A stretch of DNA of 32,691 bases from an uncultured Moraxella sp. (GTDB lineage Bacteria; Pseudomonadota; Gammaproteobacteria; Pseudomonadales; Moraxellaceae): contig NZ_CAMCBS010000021.1 in the NCBI RefSeq assembly GCF_945873075.1, positions 1 to 32,691 of the forward strand. The letters are read 5' to 3'. Below are positions 270 through 32,270 of the stretch, one piece after another (positions within the stretch are counted from its first letter, which is position 1; every line of letters starts with the position of its first letter). The position numbers were made by a program, and so were the translations under genes. A model generated the notes under the pieces. That model was not told the DNA's origin. It did no database searches and was given only the letters and a program-made list of their open reading frames with translations.

Positions 270-1520
270 TTAGCATTGTGCTTGATGGAACGCTTTGGCT
301 TGGATTAGCCGCTTGTGAATGACGGGTAGATCTTTTGCCACTTGTGTAAAATACGCCTTAAGTCCTGTACACAGATAATTAAGACGGTGTGTGCCATCAC
401 TGTCTGCAATGAAGCGGTTTTTTGGACATTCGCCCCAGCACAGTTTCAAAAATTGGCATTGCTTACAATCGCTGGGCAGATTCAAGTGCTTAGCATAGCC
501 AAAACTGGCTTGCTACCGACTAAAAGCAAGATTGGCTTCATCCGTAGTGGCGATATTACCCAGACGATACTCTGGATATACGAAGTGATCACAACTATAC
601 ACATCTCCATTATGCTCAATCGCCAATGCCTTGCCGCAAATCGGTGCAGTGGTGCATTTTTGAGCACCCATGCCAAAGGCTTGTGAGATGGTATTTTCAA
701 ACTGATCAATAAACACCTTGCCGTAGTCATTGGCCAGCCACTCTTGCCAAACTGTCACCAAAAACCGCCCCCAATCATCTGCCGTCACCGACCAATCCGT
801 GACAGAGTGAGCGCTGGTATGGATACGGTGTGCCATCTCGTCAGTCGTTGCGCGCATATACTGAGTCGCTTTAGTGTCATAATCCACAGGTGCAACAGCA
901 CTCAAAAACTGAATCATGCGTGGACGCACTTCATCACGCAAAAATCGATATACCGCAAGTGGCTCTTGGGCATTATAATGATTTACCACGCACAGCGCAT
1001 GAAAGGGGGTTTGGTGATGATGCAAAAGGTTGATGGCTTTTTTGACATAGTCAAAGGTTGGCTTGCCGTTTTTGGTGACTCGAAGCTTGTCATGCAGTGG
1101 CTTTGGGCCATCAATGGAGATGCCAACCAAGAAATTTTCTGCCTTTAAAAATTGACACCATTCATCATCAAGCAGCAGCCCATTGGTTTGAAGATCGTTT
1201 AAGATTCGTTGATTGGGCTTGGCGTGGCGTTTTTGCAGTTCGACAGCTTTTTTGAAAAATGCCAAACCCATCAAAGTTGGCTCACCACCTTGCCAAGTGA
1301 ACACCACCTCATCAGCAGTCTGTGCGTTGATATACTGGATGATATGCTGCTCAAGCATATCCTCATTCATGCGTGGTGATTTGGGCTGATTGAGTAGATT
1401 TTCTTTATGCAAATAAAAGCAATACTCACAGTCGATATTGCACTGTGAGCCGCTTGGTTTGATCATCATATGAAACGCAAAAACATCAGATTGCTTTTGC
1501 GTTTGAGTATTTTTTGTCAT
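270..1520 (-). pseudogene. Anaerobic sulfatase maturase (anSME/AtsB, radical SAM), interrupted by an in-frame TAG
   Basis: The family enzyme oxidises the active-site Ser or Cys of a sulfatase to formylglycine using SAM and three 4Fe-4S clusters. The first part (513-1520, 335 residues) has the radical-SAM motif with C27, C31 and C34, the WQGGEPTL segment, and C289, C295, C310 with D311, at the spacing of auxiliary-cluster cysteines and the catalytic Asp. Codon 336 is TAG (513-515). The same frame then continues with QASFGYAKH and, at about residues 352-384, the expected CxxC...CxxxC cysteines, NRF and a final LC, ending in TAA at 270. The break is therefore one nonsense codon, not a frameshift. 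Termination there would remove five predicted cluster ligands, so I call it a pseudogene. A sequencing error or amber read-through cannot be excluded. Its start overlaps the sulfatase stop by 4 bases (ATGA), showing translational coupling. Confidence 0.8.
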
Positions 1521-3199
1521 TTTGAGTCAGATACCTGTGGGTTGATTGGGCCGATCTCCACCACTTTAACAGCGTCAGAATACTTGACATACTGCTGAAT
1601 CATGGCTGCCAAAACTTCTGGATGATCTTTGGCTATGTTCGTCGTCTCGCCAGGATCAGCATGGACATCATACAGTTTCCATTGACCGGCATCAAGCTGA
1701 TCAATCGGTAGGCCTGCTGGCAGCGTACCAGTATAGACCGCCTTAAAATTCCCTTGGCGCACCTGACGATGGCCTCGCATCTCAAGTGACTCAGCACGGA
1801 TCGGCCCTTGTAGCTGCGCTGATGGTGCGATTAGACGGTCATTGAGACTCATGCCTGTTAGGGGTGTTTTGTTTGGTGCAGTTGCTTTTGAAACACCTGC
1901 CAGATCCAATAGGGTGGGTGCCAAATCTTTTAGGGTGCTATAGCGACCTTCAATACTGCCAGCTTTGGCAGTTGGCGCTTTGATGATAAGTGGCGATCGA
2001 ATGCCACCATCAGTCGTAAATCCTTTGAAATGCGCAAAAGGTGACATTGATGCTTGCGCCCATGCTTGACCTGTCGAAACATAACTATTGGACTGACCCA
2101 TATTTGACAAGACATTATCGCGAGAAGCACGAATCCAGCTGCCCCATTTTTGGGATGCTTCACGAGATGCGCCTGCCGCCCCATTGTCCGATAAAAAGAC
2201 AATAACCGTATCATCATATTGACCGCTGTCTTTTAAGTGACTGATAACACGGCCAATATTATAATCCATATTATCCACCATTGCTGCATACAGCTGCATT
2301 CGCTTGGTCTCCACAGCTCGCTGATCATCGCTTAGGCTTTGCCAATCAGGGGTTGCAATAAGCGGATAAGCGACGGCATCTTTTGACACCAGTCCTTTGG
2401 CTTTTAAGCGATCAAATCGCCGATCGGCAAGTGCTTGCGGCCCATCGTGATAAAAATCTTGGTATTTATCAACATAGGCTTGCGGCGCTTGCAAGGGTGA
2501 ATGTGGTGCAGTATAAGCCAAAAAGGCAAAAAATGGCTGATCTTTTGGCTGCTTTGACAAACTTTCCAAAAGATAATCGGTATAAAAATCAGTCGAAAAC
2601 ACTCCTTCGGGTAGCTGCACATCAGCACCATTATGACTGTATAAATCTCGCCCATCTGGTGAATCTTGGCGGTCTTGATAGCGATAGTTATTCGCTTCGC
2701 CATTTAGTAGTGCAAATGAGTCATCAAAACCCCAAGCATTCGGTTGGTGTTCAATAGCTTTGCCCAGATGCCACTTACCTGATAAGACAGTGTGATAGCC
2801 TGCGCTTTTGAATCTTTGGGCGATGGTGGTGGCGTTATTTGTTAAGTGTCCAACATAATTGGGTGCCGCCGCCTGCTCTGGCGTATTAAGCTCGTAGATA
2901 TTACCCAAGCCAACTTCATGTGGATCAGCACCAGTCAAAAACATCGCACGAGATGGGGACGAGTACGGCGATACAAAGAAATTGGTAAAGCCGACACCTT
3001 CTTTGGCAAGCTCATCCAAATATGGTGTCTGAATCTCACCACCATAAGGGGCAATGTCTGACCAGCCTAGGTCATCAGCCATGATGACCAAAATGTTCGG
3101 TGATGCTTGTTTGGCATAAGCAGGCAGTGTAACACCACCTAAGGCAATCGCCAAAGCTAACGATAGTGGATGCTTGGCAGCTTTAAAAAGACTTGACAT
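1517..3199 (-). CDS. Secreted serine-type sulfatase
   Basis: A 560-residue alkaline-phosphatase-fold sulfatase (arylsulfatase-like) that would hydrolyse sulfate esters in the periplasm. Residues 1-29 form a signal peptide (basic start, hydrophobic core, cleavage after AYA). Metal ligands D42 and D43 lie in MADDLGWSD. The modification motif is S80-S-P-S-R84, with Ser rather than Cys at the formylglycine position. K143 and H145 (SGKWHLG), H234 (APHSPL), D339 and N340 (LSDNGA) complete the active site. Length is normal for the family. Ser-type enzymes need a radical-SAM maturase, encoded here by the next gene, which overlaps by 4 bases but carries a stop codon. AAAGGAA lies just upstream of the ATG at 3199. 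The natural substrate is unknown. Confidence 0.9.
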   Translation of the reverse strand: MSSLFKAAKHPLSLALAIALGGVTLPAYAKQASPNILVIMADDLGWSDIAPYGGEIQTPYLDELAKEGVGFTNFFVSPYSSPSRAMFLTGADPHEVGLGNIYELNTPEQAAAPNYVGHLTNNATTIAQRFKSAGYHTVLSGKWHLGKAIEHQPNAWGFDDSFALLNGEANNYRYQDRQDSPDGRDLYSHNGADVQLPEGVFSTDFYTDYLLESLSKQPKDQPFFAFLAYTAPHSPLQAPQAYVDKYQDFYHDGPQALADRRFDRLKAKGLVSKDAVAYPLIATPDWQSLSDDQRAVETKRMQLYAAMVDNMDYNIGRVISHLKDSGQYDDTVIVFLSDNGAAGASREASQKWGSWIRASRDNVLSNMGQSNSYVSTGQAWAQASMSPFAHFKGFTTDGGIRSPLIIKAPTAKAGSIEGRYSTLKDLAPTLLDLAGVSKATAPNKTPLTGMSLNDRLIAPSAQLQGPIRAESLEMRGHRQVRQGNFKAVYTGTLPAGLPIDQLDAGQWKLYDVHADPGETTNIAKDHPEVLAAMIQQYVKYSDAVKVVEIGPINPQVSDSK

Positions 3200-3439: not shown

Positions 3440-4552
3440 ATGAAGCTAAAAACACTATCAATGATCGCAGGTGTCATGATCTTAGCAGGATGCACCGAAG
3501 ACAGACTGCCAAAGCCATCACCGATCGGTGAAAATGAGCGTGTCATCTTGCGTGTGGCGCATTTTTGGCCAGCCACCGCCATGAGCCAAAAACAGGTGCT
3601 TGAGCCGTGGTGCGCCACCATCACTGAACAGTCAGGCGGACAGATGACCTGTCAGCTATATCCTGCCATGCAGCTTGGTGGCACGCCTGCACAGCTGATG
3701 GATCTTGCCCAAGATGGCATCGCCGACATCGTCTTTACACTGCCAGGCTATACACCAGGCCGCTTTCCGATCATGGAAGTGATGGAGCTACCATTTATGA
3801 CCATCGATGGCGAGTACAGCAGCCGTGTGGCGTGGCAGATTTATCAAGAGTTTGCCCAAGACGAATTTTCGATGGTTAAGCCATTGGCATTTAATGTGCA
3901 TGACCGTGGTCAAATTCTAAATAACCGCCGTCCCATCACCAAGATCGAAGATTTTAAAGGGCTAAAACTGCGTGCGCCGACTCGCTTGACCAACAAAATG
4001 GTCGAAGCACTGGGTGCAACTCCAGTGAGCGTCCCAATGCCAGCACTGACTGATTCGGTCTCAAAAGGCGTGGTCGATGGTGTCGTGCTGCCTTGGGAAG
4101 TGATCCCAACAATCAAGCTACAAGAAGTCGCTCGCTATGCCAGTGAAATCAATGCACCAGATCCTGTGTTGTACAGTGCGCTGTTCACCATTGCGATGAA
4201 TAAATACAAATACGAAGCACTGCCACCCAAGCTCAAAAAAATCATCGACGACAATACTGGTGCCAATTTCTCCCAAAAGCTTGGGCGCACATGGGATGAG
4301 CAAATCACCACAGCACGCCAAAAAATCACCGATAACGGCAATCCGATCAACCAGATCGCATCCGATGAAGTGGCACGCATCCAAGAAGCCGCCAAGCAAG
4401 TCGAGACCGACTGGATCGCTGAGATGAATGCCAAAGGCTATGATGGTCAAGCCATCGTCAATCGTGCCAAAGAACTGATCGCCCAAGCCAAACTGGATAA
4501 AGAAAATCAAACCACGAATGGCGCAGCACAAACCCAAACGACAAGCAATTGA
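3440..4552 (+). CDS. dctP: TRAP transporter substrate-binding protein, lipoprotein form (DctP family)
   Basis: A 370-residue solute-binding protein of a tripartite ATP-independent periplasmic transporter, which binds a small organic acid and delivers it to the DctQ/DctM membrane pair. Residues 1-18 are a lipoprotein signal with lipobox LAGC (C18), so the protein should be anchored to a membrane; many DctP proteins are soluble. The DctP fold begins at LRVAHFWPAT; later GLKLRAPTR holds the conserved Arg expected to pair with the substrate carboxylate, and VDGVVLPWEV follows. C58 and C70 could form a disulfide. The last 20 residues are rich in Q, N and T and look like a disordered tail. AGGAGA precedes the ATG by 7 bases. 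It is the first gene of a three-gene operon; the substrate is unknown. Confidence 0.88.
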   Translation: MKLKTLSMIAGVMILAGCTEDRLPKPSPIGENERVILRVAHFWPATAMSQKQVLEPWCATITEQSGGQMTCQLYPAMQLGGTPAQLMDLAQDGIADIVFTLPGYTPGRFPIMEVMELPFMTIDGEYSSRVAWQIYQEFAQDEFSMVKPLAFNVHDRGQILNNRRPITKIEDFKGLKLRAPTRLTNKMVEALGATPVSVPMPALTDSVSKGVVDGVVLPWEVIPTIKLQEVARYASEINAPDPVLYSALFTIAMNKYKYEALPPKLKKIIDDNTGANFSQKLGRTWDEQITTARQKITDNGNPINQIASDEVARIQEAAKQVETDWIAEMNAKGYDGQAIVNRAKELIAQAKLDKENQTTNGAAQTQTTSN

Positions 4553-4611
4553 GCCTTAGCCGCAGTTAAGCTGGTCGGATAATACTACAATCATCAGGAT
4601 GAGAGATAATT

Positions 4612-5148
4612 ATGGCTGAATTTTTTGAAACCCAAGTACAAGACGACACACCCAAAGATGCCATCGGACGATTTTTGATGGGTTGGTCAAAGCTATCCGC
4701 TTTTGGTGGCGTCATCGTATTGGTGCTGATTTGCTTAGTCGCTACCGCAAGTGTCATCGGTCGTGCTTTATTTTCGACACCGATTAAAGGCGATGTGGAG
4801 CTGGTACAGCTTGGCTGTTCTTGGGCGATTGCGGCATTCTTGCCTTATGGTCAAATGAAAAAAGCGCATGTCATCGTGGACTTTTTTACCCTAAAAGCAC
4901 CAAAAAGTTTGCGCCGTGTGTTTGATATTTTTGCAGCTTTGCTATTGGCGCTATTTGCTGTGATGCTCATGTGGCGCAGTTATTTTGGCGCAATCGATGC
5001 CATCAAGCACGGCACCACGACGATGATCCTAGGCATGCCTGAATGGATCGCCCATATGACCATCGCCCCAGGATTTTTCTTATTGGCTTTGACGGCGTTA
5101 TACACCGCTTGGCAATTTATCAGCAACTATGATGGCTACGCCAAATAA
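4612..5148 (+). CDS. dctQ: TRAP transporter small permease (DctQ family)
   Basis: 178 residues with four predicted membrane segments, at about 31-53, 66-81, 103-123 and 151-170, as expected for the 4-TM DctQ subunit that pairs with DctM. The charged motif after the second helix (QMKKAHVIVD, residues 81-90) is typical. A 12-residue acidic cytoplasmic start precedes the first helix. The gene begins 59 bases after dctP and ends 19 bases before dctM. GAGAGA lies upstream of the ATG at 4612. Small TRAP subunits diverge strongly in sequence, so the call rests on topology plus context. Confidence 0.85.
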   Translation: MAEFFETQVQDDTPKDAIGRFLMGWSKLSAFGGVIVLVLICLVATASVIGRALFSTPIKGDVELVQLGCSWAIAAFLPYGQMKKAHVIVDFFTLKAPKSLRRVFDIFAALLLALFAVMLMWRSYFGAIDAIKHGTTTMILGMPEWIAHMTIAPGFFLLALTALYTAWQFISNYDGYAK

Positions 5149-5167
5149 TAACTAAGGATGGAATATT

Positions 5168-6490
5168 ATGGATCCAATGATTATCGGACTTGGGATGGGT
5201 GCTTTTACCATCTTGTTATTGGTTTTTCGTATTCATATCGGCATCGCCATGCTGATGGCTGGCGTGACTGGCTATGTGATGATTGCAGGGTGGTATCCAC
5301 TATTAAGCTACCTAAAAGGAATGCCATTTGCTCGTTTTTCGGTGTATGATTTATCAGTCGTGCCACTATTCTTATTGATGGGCAATATCGCATCTCGTGG
5401 CGGCTTATCCAAGCGCCTGTTCCAGTCTGCCAATGCGTTTTTGGGGCATTATCGTGGTGGTGCTGCCATCAGTGCAGTCGGTGCTTGTGCTGGCTTTGGG
5501 GCGATTTGTGGCTCATCGCTAGCGACAGCAGCGACCATGGGTCAAGTGGCACTGCCTGAGCTTAAGCGCGCCAATTACTCAGATGCGCTATCTACAGGTG
5601 CACTGGCAGCAGGGGGTACGCTTGGAATTTTGATCCCACCATCGGTGGTACTTGTCATCTATGCCGTTTTGACCGAACAAAATGTCTCAGCAATGTTTAT
5701 GGCATCACTGATCCCTGGTATCATCGCCATGCTTGGCTACATGCTCGCCATCGCCATCTATGTACGACTCGTGCCAAACAGTGGACCTGCGATGCCACGC
5801 ATGAGCTGGGGTGAGCGCATTACGCTACTTAAGGGCGTCTGGCCTGTGATTGCGGTGTTTGTGCTGGTCATCGGTGGTATCTATGGCGGTCTATTCACCC
5901 CAACTGAAGCTGCTGCCATCGGTACGGTCGCTGTCGGTATCTTAGCCTTTATTACCAAAGAAATGAATCTGTCAGGTCTGATGAATGCACTGTATGACAC
6001 AGCAGCATCGACGGCGATGATCTTTTTGATCCTATTGGGTGCTGATGTCTTGAACGCATTTTTTGCACTATCACAGATGCCAATTAGCCTAGCTGAATGG
6101 GTCATCAACAGCGGCTTAACACCTTTGACCGTGCTATTTGCGATGATCATCATCTATATCGTGCTTGGCTGTGTGATGGATAGCTTGTCGATGATTCTAT
6201 TGACTATCCCTGTGTTTTTTCCTATCATCATGGGCATGGATTTTTGGGGATTGGACCCAACGGATAAGGCGATTTGGTTTGGTGTACTGGCCTTGATGGT
6301 TGTCGAAATCGGACTGATCACACCGCCTGTGGGTATGAATATTTTCATCATCAACAGCATGGCAAAAAATGTCTCAATGAAAGAAACCTATAAAGGCGTG
6401 TTGCCATTCTTATGCTCGGATTTGATCCGTATCGTGGCACTGGTGTTTATGCCATCGATGGCGCTGTGGTTGGTTCATGTGTTGAATTAA
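5168..6490 (+). CDS. dctM: TRAP transporter large permease (DctM family)
   Basis: 440 residues, strongly hydrophobic throughout, with about 12 membrane segments. Recognisable DctM features include VVPLFLLMGNIASRGG near residue 65, GAICGSSLATAATMG near 115, the Gly/Pro-rich TLGILIPPSVVLVIY near 155, and LITPPVGMNIFIIN near 385. It is the channel subunit that drives sodium-dependent uptake of the DctP-bound solute. It is preceded by AAGGATGGA, and the start at 5168 is the first ATG after this site. It is the last gene of dctPQM. Confidence 0.92.
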   Translation: MDPMIIGLGMGAFTILLLVFRIHIGIAMLMAGVTGYVMIAGWYPLLSYLKGMPFARFSVYDLSVVPLFLLMGNIASRGGLSKRLFQSANAFLGHYRGGAAISAVGACAGFGAICGSSLATAATMGQVALPELKRANYSDALSTGALAAGGTLGILIPPSVVLVIYAVLTEQNVSAMFMASLIPGIIAMLGYMLAIAIYVRLVPNSGPAMPRMSWGERITLLKGVWPVIAVFVLVIGGIYGGLFTPTEAAAIGTVAVGILAFITKEMNLSGLMNALYDTAASTAMIFLILLGADVLNAFFALSQMPISLAEWVINSGLTPLTVLFAMIIIYIVLGCVMDSLSMILLTIPVFFPIIMGMDFWGLDPTDKAIWFGVLALMVVEIGLITPPVGMNIFIINSMAKNVSMKETYKGVLPFLCSDLIRIVALVFMPSMALWLVHVLN

Positions 6491-26498: not shown

Positions 26499-27770
26499 CT
26501 AATCCACGCTCAACAGCTCATCCCAGCGTGTGGTAAATCGTTGGCTCATAAACCCCCGATTCATCTGCCAGTCATCGGACAGTTTTTGGGTGGCGATGAT
26601 GAGACTGTTTTTACCAAATTGCTTATGAATACTATCTAGCGCTGTCATCAGTTTGGGATTGTCTTGATAGGCAGAGTCATCCACTTGGGTAAATAAATCA
26701 TCTTGCACTTGGCAAGCTTGCTCAATCCCACCAAGCTCAATCCCACATTTTTTATAACGCAGATTGGGGCGATATAGTTGTTTGAGTAGCTTTTGAGCGT
26801 GTTGATTCAACACTCGAGTATCATTACTACCTTTGGCAAGAGCAATGGTCTTTTTGCCATGATAGCGTTGTTGATTATAGCTGCCAAAGGTCTGAATGGT
26901 GACGCTTAGCGTATGCGCTAGCGTTTGCTGTGCTCGTAATGCACTTGCACCACTAGCAATATGATAAGCCACCGCAGACTGTAGCGACTCAATCTCACTA
27001 ATCGCTTTACCAAAGCTTCTGCTTCTGATGATGTGTTTCTTTGGTTCTTCAATCTCAAGCCCCGTGCAGGGTTTGCCATTCATCTCTTGCCAAGTTCTTT
27101 GAGTGGTGACGCTAAAATGATGCTTGATAAGATGTCTGTCAGCATCGACGAAGTCTTTGGCGGTGTTGATGCCTAGCTGCTTAAGTTGTAGCGCTGTTTG
27201 ACTGCCAATGCCCCATATTTCATCCACGCTTTGACTTGCTAAGGCTCTGTCTTGAATATCTTTTGACCAATCATCCCAAACCACCACACCGCCAAAGTGC
27301 TGTGGATAGCTTTTGGCAAGGTGATTGCAGAATTTGGCGAGAGTCTTAGTTGGTGCAATACCCACACAAGTAGGGATACCGACCCATTGCCAGACTCTGT
27401 CTTTGATAGATTTACCTAAATCAGATAATCGATGCTGATTAATCCCTGTTAAATCCGCAAAGCATTCATCAATCGAATACATCTCAACGGCTGGTACAAG
27501 ACTTGCAATGGTGTTCATCATCCGAGCTGAGATATCACCGTAGAGCTCATAATTACTTGAAAAGGCAATAACTTCTCCACGATGAACCAAGTCTTTGATT
27601 TGAAAATACGGCACACCCATTTTAATGCCAAGTGCTTTGGCTTCAGCGGTGCGAGCGACCACACAGCCATCATTATTGGATAAGACTACTAGCGCTTTGT
27701 TTTTAAGCTTAGGATTAAAAATCCGCTCACAAGAGCAATAAAAGCTATTACCATCAATCAGTGCGTACAT
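26499..27770 (-). CDS. umuC: UmuC, Y-family translesion DNA polymerase V catalytic subunit
   Basis: 423 residues from the ATG at 27770. [19 protein letters not shown] opens the palm, ending in the metal-binding region [11 protein letters not shown] near residue 100; [17 protein letters not shown] and [16 protein letters not shown] (thumb) follow. The little-finger region has SRSFGKAI. The C-terminus [15 protein letters not shown] is a DUF4113-type tail found in UmuC. The polymerase copies past DNA lesions with cleaved UmuD. The frame stays open 14 codons upstream, but those codons lack family similarity. umuD lies 107 bases upstream, a larger gap than in E. coli, where the genes overlap. Confidence 0.93.
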
Positions 27771-27877
27771 CAAATCATCATCTTGAAAAAAGTTACTGAT
27801 ATGATACTGCAAAGTTTGACAAATAGCAATTTGAAACTGGTAACTCTTTTCAATATGGGTAAGTTATGATTGATAGC

Positions 27878-28528
27878 TTATCGCTTACGCACATCCTTAA
27901 TTACATGCATCACCACACCAACAATAGCAAGTTCATCACCATCGCTAAAGGTGTAGTTAGGATAACTCTCATCACCACGACTATTTTCAGAGTGCAGTTC
28001 AACACATCCATCATCTAAGATATGCAATCGCTTGATGGTGTATTCAGAGCCCAAATCCGCCATGACGATATCTCGATGACTTGGTGTAATGGCACGGTCA
28101 ATGACTAATAAATCATCTTTATCAATCCCAGCATCTAACATCGAATAACCGCCACAGCGAGCAATGATGGTGGATGATTGATTGCGCACTAAATATTCAT
28201 TAAAATCCAAATAATCTTCGATATATCCTTCAGCAGGAGAAGCAAAGCCTGCAGGGATTTTCTCTGTGGCGATAGGCAAAGATAACTTCGATGGATTGGG
28301 ATGTACGACTAGTGCATCTAATGGTACAGAACCTGTCACAAACACAACACCCAATTTACCTGCTTTATTCTTTTGGATTAAAGACTCCACCATCGGCAAT
28401 AAGTTTCTTGGAATCTTCTTGGCAACAGGACTACCAAATGGGGATGGCTTACGTCCACTGCCTGCACGGCGACCGCCGTGTGTGGATTTGGGACGAGATT
28501 CGGGTTTGGTGTCATCTGATTGGGTCAT
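27878..28528 (-). CDS. umuD: UmuD-type autocleaving S24 protein, long form
   Basis: 216 residues, about 75 more than E. coli UmuD. The self-cleavage site is A93-G94 (KIPAGFASP), the nucleophile S129 (GGYSMLD) and the lysine K166 (YTIKRL). The spacings (36 and 37 residues) equal those of E. coli UmuD, so the protease is complete. The N-terminal part carries HGGRRAGSGRKPSPFG (residues 17-32), a basic segment, then a helix (RNLLPMVESLIQ). This arrangement resembles the longer UmuD relatives of Moraxellaceae, some of which double as repressors of the damage response, but no clear helix-turn-helix is visible. A consensus promoter lies upstream. Confidence 0.92.
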   Translation of the reverse strand: MTQSDDTKPESRPKSTHGGRRAGSGRKPSPFGSPVAKKIPRNLLPMVESLIQKNKAGKLGVVFVTGSVPLDALVVHPNPSKLSLPIATEKIPAGFASPAEGYIEDYLDFNEYLVRNQSSTIIARCGGYSMLDAGIDKDDLLVIDRAITPSHRDIVMADLGSEYTIKRLHILDDGCVELHSENSRGDESYPNYTFSDGDELAIVGVVMHVIKDVRKR

Positions 28529-28974: not shown

Positions 28975-29292
28975 TCAAGAACCAAGTTTTTGCTTCAAAA
29001 ATGCCAAATCTCTTCGTCCATCCAAAACTTCTAAGATATGTACCGTATCTTCAATGATGGTGTAGTACACCAAAAATGGCAGTTTTGGCACAACCATTTT
29101 TCTTATATTGGGCGAAAAATCAGCCATAGGACAGCGTTCAGGAAAATATTCAAGTGAACTGATTGCTTCTTGAATGGCTGTAATGTTGGCTTCAGCCACA
29201 ATATAGCTGGCAACATCCACATAGTATTCATAAAGCGACATCAGTGCTTGCTTGGCATCATCAGAGATGGCGATGGTATAAGCTTGACGCAT
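28975..29292 (-). CDS. ParE/RelE family toxin
   Basis: 105 residues with the compact RelE/ParE fold order: two N-terminal helices (SDDAKQALMSLYEYYV), a helix with AISSLEYFPERCP near residues 43-55, strands with IRKMVVPKLPFLVYYTI, then VHILEVLDGRRDL at the C-terminus. The final strand with the GRRDL arginines fits ParE more than mRNA-cutting RelE, so gyrase may be the target, but this is not certain. It shares one base with the antitoxin stop (TAATG), showing tight translational coupling. The antitoxin is encoded first, as usual. Confidence 0.82.
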   Translation of the reverse strand: MRQAYTIAISDDAKQALMSLYEYYVDVASYIVAEANITAIQEAISSLEYFPERCPMADFSPNIRKMVVPKLPFLVYYTIIEDTVHILEVLDGRRDLAFLKQKLGS

Positions 29293-29600
29293 TATAGCTT
29301 GCCCTTGGCTTGAGCATATTGATTGCCATGTTCACGAACAGCAGCAAAGCAATCATCAACCGAAGTGCCTTTTTTACCATCCAGCACATTTTGATATGCC
29401 TGCATGACGCGCTTTTCGACATAAGCTTCGTATTCTTCCTGCTCTTTGACTTCCTGCAGGGCTTTATCCACCAGTTCACCCATCAGATAATTCAGTGTGC
29501 GGTTTTGACGCTTGGCAAGTTGCTCTAGTGCTTGCTTTTTCTCAAAATCCATCACAAGTGATATTCTGGATTTTTGTGTAATTGTATTAACTGCAGCCAT
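29292..29600 (-). CDS. Ribbon-helix-helix antitoxin of the ParE/RelE-type pair
   Basis: 102 residues. The N-terminal part, SRISLVMDFEKKQALEQLA with NRTLNYLMGELVDKAL, has the strand-helix-helix pattern of a MetJ/Arc/CopG-type DNA-binding dimer. The C-terminal half (VKEQEEYEAYVEKRVMQAY and onwards) is charged and helical and would wrap the toxin. Its promoter carries a perfect inverted repeat over the -10 region, as expected for autoregulation. The exact subfamily (ParD, RelB or StbD) is not clear. Confidence 0.82.
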   Translation of the reverse strand: MAAVNTITQKSRISLVMDFEKKQALEQLAKRQNRTLNYLMGELVDKALQEVKEQEEYEAYVEKRVMQAYQNVLDGKKGTSVDDCFAAVREHGNQYAQAKGKL

Positions 29601-31019: not shown

Positions 31020-32270
31020 ATGAAATTACCCAAGCCGCCCACTTTATCAGAACTAGAAGCAAGTGATATTTCGTCTGTGCTTTTGGGATATTTGGCAGAG
31101 CATCCACCAACAGATGCCAAGGGGCGTTATTTGTCATGGGAGCAGTTTCGCTATCGCCATCCGACTGATAGCAAACGGCGCTGGCTTGCTCAAAAACTCA
31201 ACCACCATGCCATTATGCAGTCGATACATATTGGTGGTTATCAATTCTCATATTGCTTACCACAAAGCCTGCAAGCCAAGCTATATCACATTGAGCATCG
31301 CTATCAGCAATGGCAATGGTCCATTGATACCGAAGAACTGCTCTTTGAAGAGCCGATTAGCAGTGCTCAGCTTGAAGGTGCATCTACCACACGCAAGGTT
31401 GCCAAAGAGCTACTCGGCAGTCGCCGTGCACCTATAAACAAAAGCGAGGTGATGATTGTCAATAATTATCACTTGATGCAAGCGGTGAAACAACGATTAA
31501 CTCAACCGCTTGATATCGCTATGATTTTGCAATTACATCGCATCGCCACAGAAGGTGCGATTGACAATGATGCGATTTCGGGTGAATTTCGTCAAGATGA
31601 TGAGATTGTCATTGCTGATTATGACGGGCAAATTGTTCACCAACCCCCTGCATGGCAGACGCTACCTGTATTGATGCAGGCGTATTGTGATTTTGCCAAT
31701 GCCGATCATCAAGGGGATGACTTTATCCATCCGATTGTCAAAGCGATTATTCTGCATTTTTTACTCGGCTTTATTCATCCTTTTGGTGATGGCAATGGTA
31801 GAACTGCCCGAGCTTTGTTTTATTGGTCGCTACAAAAATCAGGCTATACGTATTTTGATTATATCTCCATCAGTCGCTTATTGCACAAAGCGCCCAAGCA
31901 GTATGCGCAAAGCTATATTGATGTAGAAACTGATGAATTGGATATGACTTATTTTATTGCTTATCAGCTCACCATCATTGATCGAGCCATTAACGATTTG
32001 CAGGCGTTGCTATCGATTGATCAAGCGCCGCAATCTATGCCAAAGCCCACACCTGCAAATCCACCTGTTGATTATAGCAATCTTAGTATCCATCAGTATC
32101 AGCTACTCACCAATACGCCAGCTGATCGAGTTTTGACCGCCAAACAAGTATCTAATGAGCTTGGCATCTCAGATAGTACCGCTCGTAAGCTACTCAATGA
32201 ACTTGAGAGCATGGGATTGGCAACCACTGTGCGTAATGGTCGTGGTAAGGGGTATTTGTTGGTGAAGTAG
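31020..32270 (+). CDS. Fic family AMP-transferase with N-terminal inhibitory motif and C-terminal winged helix
   Basis: 416 residues. The Fic motif HPFGDGNGRTAR starts at H253 and has all catalytic residues. The inhibitory motif (S/T)xxxE(G/N) is SAQLEG at residues 115-120, so this is a class II Fic in which E119 blocks productive ATP binding until relieved. An N-terminal domain (1-105, with SWEQFRYRHP) precedes it. The C-terminal region, from about residue 365, carries AKQVSNELGISDSTARKLL, a winged helix-turn-helix that could bind DNA. Fic enzymes AMPylate hydroxyl side chains of targets such as gyrase or GTPases; the target here is unknown. TGGA lies 8 bases before the ATG. A weak 7-bp hairpin (CCTTTAA/TTAAAGG, 32282-32304) follows the stop. 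Confidence 0.9.
   Translation: MKLPKPPTLSELEASDISSVLLGYLAEHPPTDAKGRYLSWEQFRYRHPTDSKRRWLAQKLNHHAIMQSIHIGGYQFSYCLPQSLQAKLYHIEHRYQQWQWSIDTEELLFEEPISSAQLEGASTTRKVAKELLGSRRAPINKSEVMIVNNYHLMQAVKQRLTQPLDIAMILQLHRIATEGAIDNDAISGEFRQDDEIVIADYDGQIVHQPPAWQTLPVLMQAYCDFANADHQGDDFIHPIVKAIILHFLLGFIHPFGDGNGRTARALFYWSLQKSGYTYFDYISISRLLHKAPKQYAQSYIDVETDELDMTYFIAYQLTIIDRAINDLQALLSIDQAPQSMPKPTPANPPVDYSNLSIHQYQLLTNTPADRVLTAKQVSNELGISDSTARKLLNELESMGLATTVRNGRGKGYLLVK

Follow-up and report, generated by a model that had tools for sequence, protein, structure and literature searches.

A single in-frame amber codon in an otherwise conserved sulfatase-maturase gene of an uncultured Moraxella

The ligands that anaerobic sulfatase maturases (anSME) provide to their auxiliary clusters have been listed in two papers (PMC5682303, PMC5491770), and the first of these, a review, describes the auxiliary clusters as critical for anSME activity. 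In a related SPASM enzyme, three single Cys-to-Ala changes had unequal effects as summarised in PMC5491770, with two of them leaving very low activity and one giving about wild-type activity. A different kind of precedent comes from genes interrupted by a stop codon. Belinky et al. (2021, PMC7918605) present lone in-frame stops within bacterial genes that are conserved in other respects as widespread and short-lived, and they argue that many of them are passed by read-through. Among the matches listed by our literature searches, those for an anSME with an in-frame stop or amber codon included none on anSME, and those for Moraxella and sulfatases included none evidently on the locus studied here. 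In the present work, we describe a Moraxella anSME gene that is split by one amber codon, and we weigh the explanations for it.

The maturase frame and its amber codon

The window, meaning the whole stretch of DNA that was analysed, is a complete contig of 32,691 bases belonging to a 60-contig draft genome of 2.09 Mb that is 93.6% complete. On the opposite strand, contig C28 begins with the same 55 bases as positions 1-55 of the window, probably through an ordinary assembly overlap. The anSME frame runs along the minus strand (1520 to 270), starts with an ATG at 1518-1520 and consists of 415 sense codons and one amber codon, with no other stop before its natural end:

516-1520, minus strand: anSME codons 1-335, covering the radical SAM core and the beginning of the SPASM domain, with the radical SAM cluster cysteines C27, C31 and C34 and the auxiliary-cluster cysteines C289, C295 and C310
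513-515, minus strand: in-frame amber codon (TAG), codon 336
273-512, minus strand: in-frame tail of 80 sense codons, with C352, C355, C361, C365 and C384
270-272, minus strand: natural terminal stop (TAA)

A preliminary description of this DNA had placed a TAG within an otherwise complete anSME frame, and both the coordinates and the frame that it gave were correct. With an X at the stop, the frame reaches 476 bits with the TIGR03942 model (anaerobic sulfatase maturase), whose curated cut-off is 349.45 bits, and codons 1-335 alone still exceed that cut-off with 397.7 bits. The CxxxCxxC radical SAM motif is encoded before the amber codon, as are three of the eight SPASM cysteines; the remaining five are encoded after it. 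By alignment to anSMEcpe (4K36/4K37), the tail cysteines correspond to Cys317, 320, 326, 330 and 348; four of these form the complete ligand set of auxiliary cluster II, and the remaining one is a ligand of cluster I. The tail shares 81.4% amino-acid identity with the nearest relative over 70 aligned codons and, because it also keeps the five cluster cysteines, it cannot be taken for a chance frame. Each of the 11 cluster cysteines (3 radical SAM, 8 SPASM) is Cys in 85/85 homologue rows, and the earlier observation that the residues after the amber codon remain in the same frame and look conserved is thus borne out.

What does codon 336 encode in other genomes? The homologue set joined the best 80 of 278 relatives from a scan of genome contigs to five loci from genus and family searches, and the resulting 85 rows include three duplicates. 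At the site of codon 336 a stop is absent from all 85 rows, so that the check in related genomes proposed in the preliminary description returns a sense codon throughout. The residue itself varies from row to row (F 32, Q 16, E 13, T 11, K 4, V 4, R 3, A 2). Homologues had been said to have usually Lys or Gln at this place; this does not hold over the 85 rows, where F is the commonest residue, but Gln is indeed present in all three genus relatives found. Stops lie within the match in five homologue rows, always away from codon 336: in four of them at query position 411 and in the fifth, L063, at the edge of an insertion. The possibility that the amber codon is common to M. bovoculi, whose match contains one TAG and one TAA, was rejected, those stops being the natural gene end. 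Within the anSME frame, 132 of the 415 sense codons are one substitution away from a stop, and nonsense events in this gene are therefore to be expected.

The neighbouring sulfatase and the locus in relatives

Next to the maturase gene lie its putative client and a divergent group of transporter genes:

1517-3199, minus strand: intact sulfatase (PF00884, 560 residues) upstream of anSME, with the Ser-type site SSPSR and an N-terminus that is signal-like by eye
3440-6490, plus strand: TRAP transporter genes DctP, DctQ and DctM, divergent, and likewise arranged in three other Moraxella genomes

The sulfatase stop overlaps the anSME start. No NCBIfam equivalog exceeded its cut-off for the window sulfatase, and a Ser-type sulfatase is also present in three Moraxella relatives. 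The same gene order with an uninterrupted anSME, without stops inside the matches, is found in G013, G001 (M. bovoculi 237) and G009 (M. oculi Tifton1). Elsewhere in the window we noted a UmuC/UmuD-like pair (an IMS family polymerase and an S24 peptidase) at 26499-28528, a gene for a 416-residue Fic-domain protein at 31020-32270, near the right contig end, and, at 28975-29600, a ParE-type toxin gene (PF05016) preceded immediately upstream by a small gene of 102 residues with no Pfam match, which may encode its antitoxin.

Two PF00884 matches were found in the genome, the window sulfatase and an EptA-type phosphoethanolamine transferase, an enzyme that is not known to use formylglycine. A search of the genome for FGE gave no match, by a method that finds one in 4/14 control genomes; neither a second maturase nor a second copy of anSME was found in the genome, where the gene is single-copy, and no near match of anSME was found on a plasmid. 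A backup maturase or FGE that would make anSME loss harmless was consequently rejected, as neither was found in the genome. The maturase seems to have one client sulfatase and no substitute, so its loss would silence that client. Since the only formylglycine-type sulfatase found is the Ser-type neighbour and FGE was not found, the anSME-sulfatase pair is probably silent. Judging from the sequence, the truncated anSME probably loses activity because five of the eight auxiliary-cluster cysteines are gone; losing five ligands and the entire tail is a much more severe change than the single Cys-to-Ala changes made in the related SPASM enzyme.

With its own genome counted, anSME is present in 4/22 genus genomes (E <= 1e-20) and in 6/149 family genomes (E <= 1e-60), the latter drawn evenly from a larger group. 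One of the family loci, L063 (G083:C14, from a different genus of this family), is interrupted by ~1.2 kb of inserted DNA, at about 305-1504, which holds a 363-residue TnpB/OrfB-type gene (PF07282 over cut-off, PF01385 just under). Thus, anSME is disrupted in 2/6 of the family loci found, by different events: the amber codon here and the insertion in G083.

Age of the stop and search for suppression

Does the gene show traces of decay other than the stop? The dN value against the nearest relative is 0.174 before the amber codon and 0.147 after it, and against the other two relatives the corresponding pairs are 0.254/0.237 and 0.283/0.292. Before the amber codon dN/dS is 0.137, which is a rough value only, dS being high or saturated and the tail value not usable. 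In relative-rate counts comparing the window branch with the sister branch, with G001 and G009 as outgroups, anSME has accumulated 13 lineage-specific amino-acid changes on the window branch versus 20 on the sister branch (p = 0.30), including 2 versus 2 in the tail. The counts, in the same order, are 24 and 34 for the sulfatase (p = 0.24), 9 and 8 for DctQ (p = 1) and 16 and 9 for DctM (p = 0.23). DctP (3440-4552) behaves unlike its neighbours, with 43 window and 19 sister changes (p = 0.003, uncorrected for five tests), and its substrate may have shifted.

Of the anSME positions that are highly conserved (>=97% in the other rows), the window has altered 0/76 before the amber codon and 0/18 after it, and four intact relatives (L010, L011, L012 and L062) have altered 2 to 4 each. 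Altogether, no relaxed selection or acceleration was seen in the window anSME by dN of front and tail, relative-rate counts or the 94 conserved positions. In a rough Poisson model, unconstrained evolution would take up at most ~4% of the branch under central assumptions, with bounds from 0.5 to 20% over the assumptions tried. As there is no other decay in anSME, the amber codon is very young, or a base error, or tolerated; the absence of acceleration is expected if the amber codon is very young and also if the gene still works.

The preliminary description had raised the idea that amber suppression yields a full-length enzyme, and had proposed to look for an amber suppressor tRNA and for pyrrolysine genes. 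Neither search gave a candidate. Rfam returned 41 tRNA matches, 40 of them over cut-off, and ARAGORN, which was run on all 41 loci, did not accept one weak match as a tRNA. No CTA anticodon (tRNA CUA) was detected by ARAGORN at the 41 tRNA loci of the 93.6% complete draft, and a dedicated amber-suppressor tRNA was rejected as unsupported, as none of the 40 tRNAs found carries the CUA anticodon. The tRNA set of the draft is incomplete, because no tRNA-Ile(GAT) was seen, and a slight chance thus attaches to a suppressor tRNA in the missing part of the assembly. Two genes encode tRNA-Gln(UUG) and none has a CUG anticodon. In the case of PylS (TIGR02367), there were four matches, the best with 35.3 bits versus a cut-off of 178.15 and none over it; control genomes gave matches in 14/14, over cut-off in 1. 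A pyrrolysine system was rejected on these scores. Loss of RF1 was likewise rejected, since prfA is complete, scoring 533 bits versus a cut-off of 423 and carrying the GGQ and PAT motifs.

At the RNA level, no stimulatory structure was apparent at the amber codon, where a 111 nt fold was no better than shuffles (z = -0.04). Stop usage in the 29 window ORFs picked as likely genes from 47 is TAG 3, TAA 18 and TGA 8. Beyond the conserved tail, there is no positive evidence for suppression to a full-length enzyme, with no CUA tRNA seen, a complete RF1, no PylS match over cut-off and no examined relative sharing the stop, and the conserved tail is no proof of it because a young mutation explains the conservation as well. 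Amber suppression or a changed genetic code has left no sign and most likely does not operate in this genome.

Competing explanations and known systems

Why, then, does a stop interrupt this gene? We consider a single recent nonsense substitution in the Moraxella anSME (AtsB-like) to be the best explanation, with a probability of about 0.72. Of the three readings offered in the preliminary description (recent inactivation, read-through and misreading in sequencing), recent inactivation is the best supported, with one lesion and no decay at conserved sites, and the gene combines an interrupted frame with intact orthologues, as is used to recognise pseudogenes. In this scenario, RF1 would end translation at codon 336, and the 335-residue product would keep the SAM-binding radical core but would be without the four auxiliary cluster II ligands and one of cluster I. 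Such a truncated anSME would be unable to generate formylglycine from the active-site serine of the adjacent sulfatase, and the intact sulfatase would be made but left unmodified, no second maturase and no FGE having been found. The anSME-sulfatase pair would accordingly have just begun to be lost, and only a few genomes of its family were found to have the system.

The lack of any sign of relaxed selection also fits a base error or maintained read-through. A sequencing or assembly error, which would mean a sense codon in the true genome and an intact maturase, is unlikely, although it would agree with the lack of any other trace of decay in anSME and with the finding that no examined relative has a stop at codon 336. 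The draft state of the assembly also speaks for it, as anSME stops some 270 bases short of a contig end, where 55 bases are identical to another contig. However, the amber codon at 513-515 is outside any homopolymer run, and anSME has just one copy in the genome. Full-length frames are seen in the four neighbouring genes that were compared, each matching its relatives almost from end to end, and 10/10 radical-SAM matches in the genome are without a stop inside the matched domain. Quite unlikely, in our opinion, is low-level read-through, by which a near-cognate tRNA, with tRNA-Gln(UUG) as the obvious candidate, would misread UAG and produce traces of maturase, enough for some sulfatase. The conserved look of the tail and the two tRNA-Gln(UUG) genes, with no CUG anticodon in the genome, favour it, and a small amount may suffice, the maturase being catalytic. 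Moreover, the authors of PMC7918605 argue that a lone in-frame stop with little other decay is common in bacterial genes and frequently does not mark a true pseudogene, and because they hold many such stops to be passed, a small probability is kept for read-through here. Nevertheless, the same authors find that in-frame stops tend to be short-lived, the conservation would be just as expected after a young null mutation, and the absence of a visible CUA tRNA, of an RNA fold signal and of any examined relative sharing the stop, together with the complete RF1, argues against it.

A more specific form of this idea, which we regard as very improbable, is that the amber codon acts as a natural dimmer: RF1 would stop most chains, and misreading by tRNA-Gln(UUG) would supply a small, perhaps condition-dependent, full-length pool, sufficient to activate the one Ser-type sulfatase and thereby to keep the tail under selection. 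If the amber codon were passed, the locus would offer a modest case from nature in which basal misreading of UAG sustains a catalytic enzyme. Finally, the two halves of anSME might form a split enzyme, if translation started afresh in the tail. Cysteine ligands are kept in both halves, but the tail has no in-frame ATG, its only possible starts (TTG 346, TTG 358 and GTG 394) have no ribosome-binding site evident by eye, so that restart within the tail looks unlikely, and both chains would have to contribute ligands to auxiliary cluster I; we find this arrangement scarcely credible.

Returning to the nonsense substitution that we prefer, it carries a caution for annotation. The truncated ORF passes the anSME cut-off despite missing five of its eight auxiliary-cluster cysteines, and a pipeline relying on TIGR03942 could therefore predict a working sulfatase system that the strain probably lacks.

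How does the locus compare with known systems? It resembles anSME/AtsB (TIGR03942; 4K36-4K39) in its score of 476 bits with X, in encoding CxxxCxxC plus eight SPASM cysteines and in the adjoining Ser-type sulfatase, whereas the standard code gives here only 335 residues and three of the eight SPASM cysteines. With pyrrolysine or other amber-suppressed genes it shares an in-frame TAG inside an enzyme gene, but it differs from them in having no PylS over cut-off, no CUA tRNA seen and TAG in 0/85 rows. The in-frame stops treated in PMC7918605 offer another comparison: the large-scale part of that work deals with stops common to two or more species, and here one genome is concerned, yet the locus has in common with them a single stop, no other decay and a sense codon in the orthologues, and the worked example of that work is also an in-frame TAG in one gene family.
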